DNA of 64,000 nucleotides from positions 62,001 through 126,000 of the forward strand of contig NZ_JADEWG010000003.1 in assembly GCF_015207735.1 (NCBI RefSeq), written 5' to 3'. Positions 15,575 through 21,490 of this stretch are shown here, one piece after another. Position numbers and translations under genes: made by a program. The stretch is from [Phormidium] sp. LEGE 05292 (GTDB lineage: Bacteria > Cyanobacteriota > Cyanobacteriia > Cyanobacteriales > Aerosakkonemataceae). The number at the start of each line of letters is the position of its first letter. The stretch's first letter is position 1. The notes beneath the pieces are model-generated. The model was not told the origin of the DNA. It saw only the letters and a program-made list of their open reading frames with translations, and searched no databases.

Positions 15575-17485
15575 TTAGCAACTATAAATACAAGCACCTT
15601 CTATATTGCCTATAATTTTTCCCCATTCCTTATTGTAGCCACTGTAATCGTTCAAAAGAATGATGTAAGCTTGACCAGGAAACTCTACTTCAGAGATGAT
15701 CTTATTCAAAAGTTTCTGGTCTTGGTCAGAAATATGCCATTTATACCAGGCTTTCTGTTGGGTAATACCTAGTACGTAAAATGGCTTTTCGGGAAAGTAA
15801 GTAACTTTTTTGCGAACCAGATATGCTTGCTTAATTTCCGGGTAACGCGATAATTGCTGATAGATTAGAGTAATTTCTTTATCTGGTAAATTGTGAGGGA
15901 TAAACTTATCTCGCTTGTCTACAAAAGAACGTTCTTGCTGTGCTTTTAGGAGTAATTCGTAATGGGTTTTGGCACGCTTTTGATAAATTATTGCTTCTTC
16001 TTCTTTGTTTTGTTGGAGTAAGAAATAGTAAATAATTTCGCAGGCTTCCATAACACAGTCTGGGTCTTTTTTCATGGCATTTTCTAGGTACTCAATACCG
16101 GAAAAGTCATTTTTTTGCAGCAATATTTGACCGAGGCTGTAGTTAGCTGCTGCATGATTAGGCTGATTCATCAGTATCTCTTGCAACAGAGGAATTATAG
16201 CTTCATTTTCCGAAACTTGGGCGGTTAGGCGAACTCGTTCCCACGCTTCTTCATCTGTTAGCTTTTGTTTTGCAGCTTTCTCTTCCAGAGTTTTTAATTG
16301 TTTTAGCGATTGTTGAACCTGAGCATATTGCTGTCGCCAAGTAGTTGAAATTTGCTCTTTCCAAGTCGTATCAAAATAAGCTGCGATCTCATTTAATTTA
16401 TCTTCAAGTAACTGTTGTGCTGCGTTGACTTTAACAATTGAAAGTGATGGCAAATTTTCTGATTTTTCAGCAAAAAAACCTAAAGCTTTTAATCGATCGC
16501 TCAAGCAAGGATGAGTATCTGCATTATTAGTTTTTTGAGCTAAAGCTTGGTTTATGAATTTTCTAGTATCTTCATCAGGCAAACTGCTAGCCAAGGCAGA
16601 GGACATTTTCGTAAAAGTTTTTGTTGGTGGCTCAACTTGATGCTGAACTTGTTTATAAAGATTAGGCCAAAAAGTATTTTCCAAAAATCTCGCTTTGACT
16701 TCCACATTCATCAGTGCTTCGGCAGTATTTTTCGCACCTGCTAATTCTGCGGCACAGCGATCGGCTTCGTATTCATTCATCCGGGCTAAAACAAACGAAT
16801 AAGCCCCAAAAAAGGGGAAATACCATTTAAAAAACGCTTCAAATAGGAAAGAAGAACCATGTTGCCCGCTTTCGTACAACCTTTGCCAAATTTGAGTGTG
16901 TGAGAGGCGGACGCGATAAATCCAGCCAGCAAAACGGCTGTGATTGCCAGACAAATGTCCTAATTCATGGGCGAGTACAGCCTGAAATTGTCTAGGGGAA
17001 AGGGCTTGCATCAACGGTAGCCCCAAAATTAGGTAGTTTTGCTGCCATCCGAACAAACCTAAACGAGGTCTTTGGATAACCGCAGCATTCAATTCATTGG
17101 TGAGTAGAATGTGGTGAAAGCGGGGGGCTTGTAGCTTGGTACTGAGCTCGTCAACGAAAGCAAACAGACGGGGAAATTCTCTGCGGTTAAGTGGTAATCC
17201 CTGGGGAGGGGGAAAAGTTACCCAGAGCGATCGCAAAATAATAAAAATTACAATGAGCAACAAAAAGGCAAACTTAATCACAGCACCATTAATTCTGTGA
17301 CTCCACAATACGAGCAACACCACTAAACCCAACGCTAGCAAAAGTCCCACTAGGACAAAAACAATGTACGCATAGCCAAGGACAGCCAAAAGACCCACTC
17401 GAAGTTTATAACTTGCAGGCTTGCTGTGGGCAAAAATTTCCAAGCGTTTTACCAGTGCATCGAACTTTTCGTCAGTCATCATCAT
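15575..17485 (-). CDS. M48-family zinc metalloprotease with TPR-like region
   Basis: About 636 residues. Two hydrophobic regions near the N-terminus (about residues 38-65 and 70-95) are followed by the zinc motif AVLAHELGHLSGNH (about residue 170) and the third-ligand region NEYEADRCAAELAG, as in HtpX/Ste24-type M48 peptidases. The second half holds a coiled-coil-like stretch and tetratricopeptide-like units (HAAANYSLGQILLQKNDFSGIEYLENAMKKDP region, about 455-500). A membrane protease for quality control is likely; substrates unknown. ATG codons at 17479-17485 follow a weak AGTAGGTG; a GTG at 17503 would add six residues. Confidence 0.88.
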   Translation of the reverse strand: MMMTDEKFDALVKRLEIFAHSKPASYKLRVGLLAVLGYAYIVFVLVGLLLALGLVVLLVLWSHRINGAVIKFAFLLLIVIFIILRSLWVTFPPPQGLPLNRREFPRLFAFVDELSTKLQAPRFHHILLTNELNAAVIQRPRLGLFGWQQNYLILGLPLMQALSPRQFQAVLAHELGHLSGNHSRFAGWIYRVRLSHTQIWQRLYESGQHGSSFLFEAFFKWYFPFFGAYSFVLARMNEYEADRCAAELAGAKNTAEALMNVEVKARFLENTFWPNLYKQVQHQVEPPTKTFTKMSSALASSLPDEDTRKFINQALAQKTNNADTHPCLSDRLKALGFFAEKSENLPSLSIVKVNAAQQLLEDKLNEIAAYFDTTWKEQISTTWRQQYAQVQQSLKQLKTLEEKAAKQKLTDEEAWERVRLTAQVSENEAIIPLLQEILMNQPNHAAANYSLGQILLQKNDFSGIEYLENAMKKDPDCVMEACEIIYYFLLQQNKEEEAIIYQKRAKTHYELLLKAQQERSFVDKRDKFIPHNLPDKEITLIYQQLSRYPEIKQAYLVRKKVTYFPEKPFYVLGITQQKAWYKWHISDQDQKLLNKIISEVEFPGQAYIILLNDYSGYNKEWGKIIGNIEGACIYSC

Positions 17486-17635
17486 GGCACTGCACCTACT
17501 CACCTACTTACTTAGGAGTTAGCTAATCCTTACCCAAAAATTTCGCTATATTAGCTCAGTCAGTTTTAACCGAACTGTCAACCCTCAAGCCAATATAATT
17601 GAAGCTACGAAACAAAATTTAAAAGTTGCTGTTCT

Positions 17636-18820
17636 ATGGCAAGAATCGAAACGAGAACAGAACCAATGGTTCTGAACATGGGGCCGCACCATCCCTCAAT
17701 GCACGGGGTATTGCGGTTAATTGTTACCTTAGATGGGGAAGATGTAGTTGATTGTGAACCTGTAATTGGCTACCTACATCGCGGCATGGAGAAAATTGCC
17801 GAGAACCGCACCAATATTATGTATGTTCCTTACGTGAGTCGTTGGGACTATGCGGAAGGGATGTTCAATGAAGCTGTCACCGTGAATGCGCCGGAAAAGT
17901 TGGCAGGGATTGAAGTTCCTAAACGCGCCAGCTATATTCGCGTGATTATGCTGGAGTTGAACCGCATTGCTAACCATTTATTGTGGCTTGGCCCATTTTT
18001 GGCTGACGTGGGCGCACAAACTCCGTTTTTCTACATTTTCCGGGAACGGGAATATATTTACGATTTGTGGGAAGCGGCAACAGGTTATCGGATGGTGAAT
18101 AACAACTACTTCCGCATTGGGGGAGTGGCGGTAGATTTGCCTTACGGTTGGGTGGATAAGTGTTACGATTTCTGCGACTACTTTATGCCTGTGGTTGACG
18201 AATACGAACGCTTAATTACTGATAACCCGATTTTCCGTCGCCGAACTGAAGGTGTGGGTACTATCACCCGCGAAGAAGCGATTAACTGGGGTCTTTCTGG
18301 CCCAACGTTACGCGGTTCTGGCGTGAAGTGGGATTTGCGGAAGGTCGATCATTACGAATGTTACGATGACTTCGATTGGGAAGTGCATTATGAAAATTCT
18401 GGTGATTGTCTCGCCCGTTATAATGTGCGAATTCGGGAAATGCGGGAGTCGGTGAAGATTATTCGCCAAGCTTTAAAGGGACTTCCCGGTGGGCCTTACG
18501 AGAATTTGGAAGCGAAGCGGTTGGCAGCAGGGCCAAAATCTGAGTGGAATGGTTTCGATTACCAGTACATTGGCAAAAAAGTTGCCCCAACTTTCAAAAT
18601 TCCTAAAGGTGAGTACTACGCCCGTGTGGAAAGTGGTAAAGGGGAATTAGGAATTTACCTGATTGGCGATGATAATGTGTTCCCTTGGCGGTGGAAGATT
18701 CGCGCTGCGGATTTTGTGAATCTGCAAATTCTGCCTCACCTGTTGAAGGGTGTGAAGGTTGCTGATATTGTGGCAATTTTGGGCAGTATCGACATTATCA
18801 TGGGTTCGGTAGACCGCTAG
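17636..18820 (+). CDS. ndhH: NAD(P)H-quinone oxidoreductase subunit H (NdhH)
   Basis: The 49-kDa-type subunit of the cyanobacterial NDH-1 complex, in the hydrophilic arm at the quinone site, serving respiration, cyclic electron flow and CO2 uptake. 394 residues, full length. The N-terminus has [15 protein letters not shown] and [14 protein letters not shown]; the middle has TRGEGVG-like [12 protein letters not shown] and [12 protein letters not shown]; the C-terminus ends DIIMGSVDR. Arg49 in GYLHRG aligns with the arginine of mammalian NDUFS2 that NDUFAF7 methylates. ATG at 17636. A repeat-rich spacer and a MidA-type methyltransferase follow. Confidence 0.98.
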
Positions 18821-18863
18821 AGAAGGCAGAAGGCAGAAGGCAGAAGGCAGAAGGAAAGAAGGC
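18821..18863. repeat. AGAAGGC heptamer tandem repeat
   Basis: About five tandem copies of a 7-bp unit (AGAAGGC) begin at the ndhH stop codon, then degenerate. This fits the STRR heptamer repeats described in Nostoc/Anabaena. Confidence 0.85.
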
Positions 18864-18931
18864 TTAAACAAGACTTTTCCATTTGTTTTTCTGTATACTT
18901 AATTTCTGCCATGCTGCACTAGAAAGATTTG

Positions 18932-19083
18932 ATTTGTAGGGGCGGGTTTAGTAAATAAGTTTCTGTAAATTGACAGAAAAGATGACAATAAAACCCGCCC
19001 TAGATAATGGTTGTCAGGGCGGGTTTTGTTGGAATTCTTCGGCTAGGATGAGAGAATTGTCTGCTAAACCCGCCCCTACAAAT
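18932..19083. mobile_element. Nested inverted-repeat element (MITE-like)
   Basis: A 152-bp element with perfect 20-bp terminal inverted repeats: ATTTGTAGGGGCGGGTTTAG at 18932-18951 and its complement at 19064-19083. Inside is a second perfect inverted repeat, AAAACCCGCCCT (18990-19001) and AGGGCGGGTTTT (19016-19027), and a smaller TTCTGT/ACAGAA hairpin (about 18961-18978). It has no coding capacity. The structure fits a non-autonomous miniature element or a multi-hairpin terminator block between ndhH and the methyltransferase gene. No clear target-site duplication was found by eye. Confidence 0.7.
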
Positions 19084-19100
19084 TAACACTAATTATTTTT

Positions 19101-20303
19101 ATGGATGATTCTAACTTAGGTTTGAGGGGAGCGATACGCCTAACGGCACGCTACGCGATCGCAAATCAAATCTCTTCCCATCCCCAAAAACGCATTACTT
19201 TTGCCGAATTCATGAATTTGGCACTTTATCACCCAGAGTACGGTTACTACGCTACAAATCAAGTTAACATTGGCTCGCAAGGTGATTTTTTTACTTCTCC
19301 CCATTTAGGCGCAGATTTTGGCGAGTTGTTAGCTAGGCAATTTTGCCAAATGTGGGAAGTTATGGGTTGTCCAATACCTTTTAATTTAGTGGAAATGGGT
19401 GCAGGGCAGGGAATTTTAGCGGGAGATATACTGCGTTATTTACACAAGCATCATTTCGAGTTTTTCTCAGCGTTAGATTACATTATTGTCGAAAAGTCAT
19501 CCGCCTTAAGGCTGGAACAACAACAACTGTTGTCCAATTTTCCGCTGCGTTGGTGTGAGTGGGAGGAAATACCCGCTAATTCCCTAGTTGGATGTTGCTT
19601 TTCTAATGAACTGATAGATGCTTTTCCGGTGCATCAGGTAATTTGGGAAAAAGGGGAGTTAAAGGAAGTTTATGTAAGTTTGGGAAATGAAGGGGAGTTT
19701 GTGGAAGTGGTAGGAGAAGCTTCTACAAATCGGTTAGTTGAGTATTTTGATTTAGTGGGAATTGATTTTGCTAAAAATGCTTATCAAGAGGGCTATCGCA
19801 CTGAGGTAAATTTGCTGGCTTTGGATTGGTTAAGCATGATTGCTGATAAAATTCAACGAGGTTATTTGTTAACAATTGATTATGGCTATCCTGCCCATCG
19901 TTATTATAGTTTAGGGCGCAGTCAGGGAACTTTGCAATGTTATTATCGCCACAGTCATCATAACGATCCTTATATCAATATAGGGCAGCAAGATATTACT
20001 GCTCATGTGGATTTTACGGCTTTGGAAAAATGGGGGGAGTTGTGCGGTTTGCGGTGGTTGGGTTTTACGCAACAAGGGTTGTTTTTGATGGCGTTGGGGT
20101 TAGGCGATCGCATTTCCGCTATTTCTGATAGTAACGCCACCCATTTTCAGGATATTCAAAAGGTTCTACAACGTCGCGATGCGCTACACCAAATGATTAA
20201 TCCAATGGGTTTGGGTGGTTTTGGTGTTTTGCTGCAATGTCGGGGTTTAAGGGAGGAGGAAATAACTCAATCTTTGAAAGGTTTTACTGTTCCGAGAAGG
20301 TAG
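19101..20303 (+). CDS. MidA/NDUFAF7-type SAM-dependent methyltransferase
   Basis: A 400-residue class I methyltransferase of the family (Pfam Methyltransf_28) that includes mitochondrial NDUFAF7/MidA, a complex I assembly factor that dimethylates an arginine of NDUFS2. Visible: ITFAEFMNLALYHPEYGYYA, GDFFTSPHLGADFGELLARQ, the SAM loop NLVEMGAGQGILAGDILRY (about residue 90), CCFSNELIDAFPVHQV, LTIDYGYPAHRYY and QDITAHVDFTALE. It follows ndhH, which encodes the NDUFS2 homologue. Residues 10-22 (about 19130-19165) are encoded by a copy of an interspersed repeat, so the annotated N-terminus may be extended. A start at 19101 is taken. Confidence 0.88.
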   Translation: MDDSNLGLRGAIRLTARYAIANQISSHPQKRITFAEFMNLALYHPEYGYYATNQVNIGSQGDFFTSPHLGADFGELLARQFCQMWEVMGCPIPFNLVEMGAGQGILAGDILRYLHKHHFEFFSALDYIIVEKSSALRLEQQQLLSNFPLRWCEWEEIPANSLVGCCFSNELIDAFPVHQVIWEKGELKEVYVSLGNEGEFVEVVGEASTNRLVEYFDLVGIDFAKNAYQEGYRTEVNLLALDWLSMIADKIQRGYLLTIDYGYPAHRYYSLGRSQGTLQCYYRHSHHNDPYINIGQQDITAHVDFTALEKWGELCGLRWLGFTQQGLFLMALGLGDRISAISDSNATHFQDIQKVLQRRDALHQMINPMGLGGFGVLLQCRGLREEEITQSLKGFTVPRR

Positions 20304-20350: not shown

Positions 20351-21490
20351 TTAGATATCTGTTTCTAAAATGGTGAGGACGTATTCTGCTTGGTTGACTG
20401 AATGGTTTGTAGATAGGTCGAAAATTATGCCATTTTTTTCGGCAATAACGTCTATTATAGCAGGTAATTTGCCTTCTTTATTAAAGGAAATAATTTGGTA
20501 AAGTCGCTCTCCTGCTGTTACTAAAGTTGCTAAATTGAGGCGAGTTTGAATTACCCCGCCGATGGGGGCATAGTATTTTTTTATTTGAGTTTTCCGGGCG
20601 TATTTTATCTGATGTGTTGCTGTTTCTGGAAGGGGAAATCCAGGGATTGACAATATACCTTTTTGGGCTAAGTAGTTCTTAATTCCTCGCACTCCTTTGA
20701 CAACTGATTCAGGATTCATTTGCATACCCGAACCTAATTCTAATGTCCACGATTCTAAATCAAATTGAATCGGTTTTCCTTGCTGCGCTAGGGCATCTTC
20801 CAAGGCTAGCCAAGGCTTTAAGAAGGCTTCGTCAAAAGCATCTCCGTCATATTCGTTGAGTAAAATCTCATAGTCTAAAAGAAACGCTTTGGCGCTTTCT
20901 TCCCTACCTTTAAAACCATAAATGTAATCTATCCCTTGATTGCTAGAACTATGGATATCAATAACATAATCGGCATCTAAACATAGAGATTGTAGTTGAT
21001 ATCGATATAAATCAGTTAAAGGAACTCCACTTGGAGAATTAATCTTTTCTGCTAGTTTTTCAAAGCTTTGTTTGATTTGTTGAAGATAATTTTGTCTAAT
21101 AGTATCATGGTGAACATTTAATAGTGTTTTAACAAATATTTCTAAATCTTTACATTCTTTTTCATAGTCCCAAAATATCCGATTCCAATCTTTACCATCA
21201 TAAATGTTAAATCTTCCAGTAGAAAAGTAGTGAGTACGTTGGTTTGTGCTAAAAGGATTACAGAGGGGAACAAGCCAAATTTCACCAGTAATGTTTGTTT
21301 GATTGATATTGTTCAAAAACTCAATTAACTGATGAATGACGGCATTACCAACAATTTCAGCACCATGTAAATTGGCTTGAATATAAGCTTTTTTACCAGG
21401 GGTGGAACCAATGAATTTGTAGATTTGGAGGAAAAAGCGATCGCCAGAGGCGAGTTGTATCAGAGGAAGATGAGAAATTGTCGGAATCAT
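20351..21490 (-). CDS. Succinylglutamate desuccinylase/aspartoacylase-family (M14-like) zinc hydrolase
   Basis: A 379-residue metallo-carboxypeptidase-fold protein. QANLHGAEIVGN (about residue 38) supplies the His and Glu zinc ligands, VIDIHSSSNQG (about 178) the third ligand, and TLELGSGMQM the catalytic-Glu region. A C-terminal beta-rich domain (KKYYAPIGGVIQTRLNLATLVTAGERLYQI) matches the family's biotinyl-lipoyl-like tail. Substrate is not predictable: members deacylate N-acyl amino acids or related amides. AGGAGTTAGAT precedes the ATG at 21490, supporting the start. Confidence 0.85.
   Translation of the reverse strand: MIPTISHLPLIQLASGDRFFLQIYKFIGSTPGKKAYIQANLHGAEIVGNAVIHQLIEFLNNINQTNITGEIWLVPLCNPFSTNQRTHYFSTGRFNIYDGKDWNRIFWDYEKECKDLEIFVKTLLNVHHDTIRQNYLQQIKQSFEKLAEKINSPSGVPLTDLYRYQLQSLCLDADYVIDIHSSSNQGIDYIYGFKGREESAKAFLLDYEILLNEYDGDAFDEAFLKPWLALEDALAQQGKPIQFDLESWTLELGSGMQMNPESVVKGVRGIKNYLAQKGILSIPGFPLPETATHQIKYARKTQIKKYYAPIGGVIQTRLNLATLVTAGERLYQIISFNKEGKLPAIIDVIAEKNGIIFDLSTNHSVNQAEYVLTILETDI

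Follow-up and report, generated by a model that had tools for sequence, protein, structure and literature searches.

A MidA/NDUFAF7-family methyltransferase gene beside cyanobacterial ndhH and its association with the Arg-Gly site of NdhH and NuoD

In the 64,000-nucleotide stretch of [Phormidium] sp. LEGE 05292 DNA analysed here (the window), ndhH is followed on the same strand by a gene for a MidA/NDUFAF7-family methyltransferase (Table 1), and the reading best supported by our sequence comparisons is that this neighbour would methylate NdhH at Arg49, the residue corresponding to the dimethylated Arg85 of mitochondrial NDUFS2. The preliminary description of the locus had reached the same proposal from the conserved arginine and the adjacency of the two genes, and these are not its main grounds here. 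Stronger support than either comes from the link between the enzyme and a glycine directly after the arginine (the HRG motif), and from two genomes (G021 and G041) in which the enzyme gene stands before nuoABCDEF.

The locus and its two proteins

The methyltransferase gene lies downstream of ndhH as had been described, with both ORFs present and profile-matched. With a minus-strand gene on either side, the two form an isolated, co-directional pair. The gap of 283 bp between them contains no ORF of at least 60 aa, and scanning 17400-19200 for consensus motifs gave no promoter-like or terminator-like sites within it; the two genes in the window may or may not be co-transcribed. A tandem repeat (18821-18848) in this gap is followed by a nested palindrome of 158 bp (18929-19086) with outer arms of 36 nt that are 83% complementary and an inner hairpin, and the outer-arm motif has no other occurrence within the window.

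Table 1. Features of the ndhH-methyltransferase locus, in window positions
Feature	Position	Strand	Details
M48-family peptidase gene, flank of ndhH	15575-17503	-	
ndhH, NDH-1 subunit H (NuoD/NDUFS2 homologue)	17636..18820	+	394 aa; NF005649 844.5 bits
Codons of Arg49 (predicted to be methylated) and Gly50 (predicted to serve recognition) in the HRG motif	17780..17785	+	translation
Intergenic region with tandem repeat and nested palindrome	18821..19100	.	resembles a small non-coding inverted-repeat element
MidA/NDUFAF7-family (PF02636, COG1565) SAM-dependent methyltransferase gene	19101..20303	+	400 aa; PF02636 256 bits
AstE/AspA-type protein gene, flank of methyltransferase gene	20351-21490	-	

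In profile searches the window NdhH scored 844.5 bits with the NCBIfam model NF005649 (cut-off 583) and 345 bits with PF00346, and its closest solved structure is the NdhH chain 6hum_H (E 3e-244). Its site reads GYLHRGMEK, with the target Arg49 directly before Gly50, and all three plastid NdhH chains in the structure-sequence alignment likewise read GYLHRG. The proposed correspondence between Arg49 and Arg85 of NDUFS2 is right, since both residues correspond to a Thermus threonine: Arg49 aligns with the threonine of Thermus GYLHTG, and PMC3750175 places bovine Arg85, dimethylated in the peptide KCDPHIGLLHRGTEK (residues 75-89), where the Thermus subunit has threonine. The same source reports dimethylation of the corresponding arginine in human, Pichia and Paracoccus, finds Arg249 of E. 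coli NuoCD unmodified, and notes that in most cases a methylated arginine has glycine directly after it.

Conservation of Arg49, by contrast, turned out to be uninformative and was rejected as evidence for modification. Arg49 is present in 138 of 138 NdhH proteins of the window's class, Cyanobacteriia (137 full, 1 fragment), including those of all five NdhH-bearing genomes that lack the enzyme, and the E. coli arginine is unmodified according to PMC3750175. Conservation of this arginine has a structural reason of its own; in Yarrowia, the arginine R121 is described as needed for cluster N2, in a motif named HRGXE (PMC8042128).

By profile and family residues, the 19101-20303 gene is a cyanobacterial member of the MidA/NDUFAF7 family. 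Its product matches PF02636 (Methyltransf_28) at 256 bits against a cut-off of 23.3, over profile positions 1-249 of 249; it is the single PF02636 match in the window's genome, and no NCBIfam model matches it at E 0.001. Among solved structures it matches bacterial 4f3n (E 4e-46), bacterial 1zkd (1e-34) and the Dictyostelium NDUFAF7 homologue 5ztz (6e-23). The residues common to the window enzyme and Dictyostelium MidA are E98-x-G-x-G-x-G104, E170, D173, D260-Y-G, G295, D298 and Q325. We aligned 57 family members, namely the window enzyme, 33 others of its class, 5 from other classes of the phylum, 15 from a second phylum (that of genome G325) and the three structures. The SAM motif and the acidic residues are common to these sequences: E98, G100, G104, E170, D173, D260, Y261, G295, D298, Q325 and L329 occur in 57 of 57, G102 in 56 and H284 in 54. 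Among 14 control genomes including E. coli, only Caulobacter, Synechococcus elongatus and Haloferax have PF02636 matches. Another candidate for the cyanobacterial enzyme, Slr0320, was rejected, as PMC8065906 describes B12-binding and radical-SAM domains in it.

Linkage of the two genes across the phylum

PF02636 was found in 143 of the 292 genomes of the window's phylum. Within the class it occurs in 133 of 139 genomes; the other 10 carriers lie outside the class, and 4 of them have only weak matches under 36 bits. An enzyme gene co-directional with ndhH and at most 1.6 kb downstream of it is present in 17 of the 133 enzyme-bearing genomes of the class (G000, G005, G008, G022, G024, G039, G042, G074, G099, G101, G185, G195, G203, G229, G231, G233 and G289). 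These span seven family codes (f1, f3, f4, f6, f7, f18 and f23), with order and strand identical in all 17 loci, and two further genomes (G068 and G167) keep the same order and strand at a distance of about 10-13 kb. Adjacency exceeds chance, random placement being expected to give about 0.02 adjacent genomes where 17 of 133 were observed, related genomes not being independent. The count is a lower bound, because adjacency is invisible where the two genes sit on different contigs.

The arrangement is thus not unique to this genome and is constant in order and strand, but it is a minority one: the genes are not neighbours in 116 of the 133 genomes, and a conserved ndhH-methyltransferase operon as the rule across the class was rejected. 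Adjacency changed at least eight times on a 139-row NdhH tree (FastTree; without G005) that cannot separate gain from loss. This is the picture that an ancient, frequently separated pair would give, and the pair is probably an old linkage that has been broken in most genomes. The genome comparisons suggest that the two genes belong together, which would mean that the predicted modification, of the mitochondrial Arg85 type, probably occurs in cyanobacteria.

The loci also differ in what separates ndhH from the enzyme gene. In five of the 17 (L092, L103, L104, L105 and L107; family f6) it is a GAF-domain gene on the same strand, encoding about 180 aa, in one a Uma2-family gene, and in others various ORFs. 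In G005 (L101 and L102), ndhH is broken at contig ends: its C-terminal 57 aa lie beside the methyltransferase gene, and N-terminal pieces of about 80 aa are on two other contigs.

The 116 genomes in which the genes lie apart favour a different reading, that the enzyme methylates a target other than NdhH (a different protein, a small molecule or a nucleic acid) and that its place after ndhH is chance or a relic linkage. Against this, the enzyme gene stands directly before nuoABCDEF in G021 and G041, which belong to another class of the window's phylum (NuoD and the enzyme were profile-matched there, and the nuoABCDEF names were read from translations). In the second phylum, 4 of the 85 enzyme-bearing genomes tested (G383, G396, G439 and G532) have the enzyme gene and NuoD on one strand, with the enzyme gene 2-3 kb upstream.

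Presence of the enzyme and the residue after the arginine

In the class, we read NdhH from 138 genomes, that of G005 from an N-terminal fragment. All 133 enzyme-bearing genomes have HRG, whereas the five with NdhH and without the enzyme have HRS in three cases (G085, G193 and G241) and HRG in two (G243 and G282), an association with a Fisher p of 2e-5, uncorrected for kinship. Elsewhere in the phylum, G035, G047 and G053 have HRS and lack the enzyme, and other enzyme-less genomes have HRG. A search with the window's enzyme protein found nothing in G051, G085, G241, G243, G282, G035, G047 or G053; in G193, it gave one match of 12.8 bits over 55 residues (E 0.07), which we take as chance. The sixth class genome without PF02636, G051, also lacks ndhH. 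We rejected this as a case of co-loss: ndhA is kept, and because ndhH and the enzyme gene adjoin in G233, of the same genus, the double absence is read as one missing stretch. Second ndhH copies occur in five genomes (G068, G101, G185, G174 and G289; L198, L201, L203, L204 and L205); they are 76-89% identical to the window's NdhH and all have HRG.

In the second phylum, 88 of 199 genomes have PF02636 above cut-off. The NuoD search covered 80 of the 199, 35 with the enzyme and 45 without, and five genomes with PF02636 under 28 bits (G349, G371, G384, G409 and G497) were left out of both groups. Twelve of the 35 enzyme-bearing genomes had no HRG copy among the NuoDs first read; for 11 of them an HRG second copy was predicted, and it was found in 11 of 11 when fetched, both listed NuoDs of the twelfth, G491, having already been read. 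As read, an HRG NuoD is present in 34 of 35 enzyme-bearing versus 19 of 39 enzyme-less genomes (Fisher p 1.7e-6, uncorrected); six of the 45 enzyme-less genomes are outside this comparison, five without a NuoD match and one (G378) not fetched. Reading effort was unequal, which counts against a fair comparison: of 21 enzyme-less genomes without HRG at first, six had a further copy fetched (one HRG), two had two copies already read, five have a single match and eight have further matches unread. In the worst case, with all eight of these HRG, the comparison becomes 34 of 35 versus 27 of 39 (p 0.002).

A further 50 enzyme-bearing genomes of this phylum all have NuoD, which is therefore present in 85 of 85 tested; the 5 of 80 genomes without NuoD all lack the enzyme. 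One copy was read in 30 of the 50, giving 26 HRG, three HTG (G346, G463 and G474) and one HRC (G419). Combined, an HRG copy was read in 60 of 65 enzyme-bearing versus 19 of 39 enzyme-less genomes, again with unequal effort; for G419, G463 and G474, the copy read is non-HRG and a second is unread. The apparent exceptions are G491, with a divergent PF02636 match of 86.8 bits and two NuoDs that read HRC and HTG, and G346, with a PF02636 match of 147 bits and HTG in its only NuoD-like match above 91 bits. A third phylum (that of G302) was rejected as a replicate: matches above the cut-off occur in 22 of its 193 genomes, the best at 59.5 bits over positions 14-114, and because there is no clear MidA there, it offers no contrast.

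The contrast between HRG and HRS leads to the prediction that the enzyme should be missing where the residue behind the NuoD arginine is not glycine. We looked for such sites with a degenerate DNA pattern encoding PxxGYLHR followed by C, S or T and recovered at least 119 loci, all NuoD-type and aligning with NdhH over the site; among the 119 listed, 102 are HRC, 15 HRS, one HRT and one HSS, in which the arginine itself is changed. PF02636 was above cut-off in none of the 50 genomes searched out of these 119 (69 lie outside the search), the best and only match reaching 18.8 bits. The number of independent cases is below 50, because many of these genomes belong to groups in which the enzyme may be missing throughout. 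The HSS case (L288, GYLHSSLEK) has serine in place of the arginine, in a genome without PF02636. NuoDs with HSG or HCG (L370, L371 and L373 in G376, G389 and G363, and L390 in G353) are further natural replacements of the arginine, also in genomes without PF02636.

To correct for kinship, we used a NuoD tree in which each of 110 genomes (74 of the second phylum and 36 chosen from the window's) has a single sequence, with the columns around the motif left out and pairs taken on supported branches. We scored G004 and G010, whose PF02636 matches are weak (under 36 bits), as lacking the enzyme; G018 and G038, with similarly weak matches, are outside the set. Over 13 independent pairs differing in the enzyme, HRG agrees in 4.6 on average, disagrees in none and shows no difference in 8.4 (median p 0.0625); over eight independent pairs differing in HRG, 5.1 agree and almost none disagree (median p 0.0625). 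After correction, the association is thus consistent in direction and borderline in strength, and the test is further weakened because the NuoD tree follows a single gene and includes paralogues.

HRG is not dependent on the enzyme, because it is kept by two of the five class genomes that lack the enzyme, by at least 19 of the 39 such genomes of the second phylum and by several from other classes of the window's phylum. This would suit an enzyme with some other substrate, as would G491 and G346, which have PF02636 and no HRG NuoD as read, and the DNA methylation claimed for Wolbachia MidA (PMC12455994); the literature searched yielded no cyanobacterial substrate. We nonetheless regard another substrate as unlikely: the enzyme goes with HRG NuoD in two phyla, it is absent from all 50 non-HRG genomes searched, and all 11 predictions of a second HRG copy were borne out. 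Less likely still, and in our judgement quite improbable, is that the enzyme acts on NdhH in another way, by methylating a different residue or chiefly as a chaperone of assembly. Belonging to the family does not dictate which residue is modified, and a need for arginine near N2, as described for Yarrowia R121 (PMC8042128), would by itself explain the conservation; yet the variation seen in enzyme-less genomes falls on the neighbour of Arg49, and the window enzyme has the SAM motif.

Proposed modification and comparison with known systems

Methylation of NdhH Arg49 by its neighbour fits the pattern in that the glycine beside the arginine tracks the enzyme, as recognition of an Arg-Gly site would have it (compare PMC3750175). 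We consider it probable that the enzyme binds newly made NdhH before NdhH and NdhK come together around cluster N2, and that, like NDUFAF7 on NDUFS2 Arg85, it dimethylates Arg49 of the H-R-G-x-E loop; the glycine after the arginine would be needed for recognition. For the cyanobacterial enzyme, we infer substrate, symmetric chemistry, timing and assembly role, and the last three are carried over by analogy from mitochondria, as described in PMC3829151 and PMC9006661.

Together with the enzyme's family and its recurrent location close to complex I genes, the glycine makes methylation of the NuoD/NdhH HRG loop by bacterial MidA the simplest account. More tentatively, and with somewhat less than even confidence, MidA may be a complex-I-dedicated arginine methyltransferase across bacteria, beyond the proteobacterial-mitochondrial line, that reads the H-R-G-x-E loop; where the enzyme is lacking, the glycine would be free to become Cys, Ser, Ala or Asn. 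If these readings are true, cyanobacterial NDH-1, and perhaps plastid NDH, would have beside N2 the modification demonstrated for mitochondria and Paracoccus. The HRS, enzyme-less lineages near the base of the NdhH tree would then be unmethylated, a natural contrast to methylated lineages for the study of N2, and enzyme-less lineages in general would offer a natural test of the role of methylation at this cluster. A co-occurrence rule (enzyme present, HRG NuoD present) would predict modification status from genomes.

According to PMC12455994, MidA function in prokaryotes had been inferred only in silico, and DNA methylation is reported there for Wolbachia MidA expressed in E. coli. For alphaproteobacterial homologues, PMC9006661 describes NDUFS2 methylation as indicated by bioinformatic and structural evidence; the source behind this statement is Shahul Hameed et al. 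2018 (Cell Rep), cited in both PMC9006661 and PMC12455994. In the literature searched, we found no modification data for cyanobacterial NdhH and recognised no paper on the cyanobacterial enzyme or its site.

The closest known system is NDUFAF7/MidA of human and Dictyostelium. The window enzyme belongs to the same Pfam family (PF02636), has the SAM motif and acidic residues of Dictyostelium MidA, and the target arginine is present in its partner subunit; by sequence score, it is nearer to bacterial 4f3n and 1zkd than to Dictyostelium 5ztz. Unlike NDUFAF7/MidA, it is bacterial, its gene lies beside ndhH, its partner belongs to cyanobacterial NDH-1, and its activity is predicted. Among bacteria, complex I of Paracoccus denitrificans has a dimethylated arginine, Arg65, at the corresponding position of its 49-kDa subunit homologue (PMC3750175); unlike the window's genome, Paracoccus belongs to another phylum, and PF02636 presence was checked in Caulobacter instead. 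E. coli NuoCD, like the window NdhH, has arginine at the site (PMC3750175), but there it is reported as unmodified, and the E. coli control genome is without PF02636, whereas the window's genome has the enzyme.
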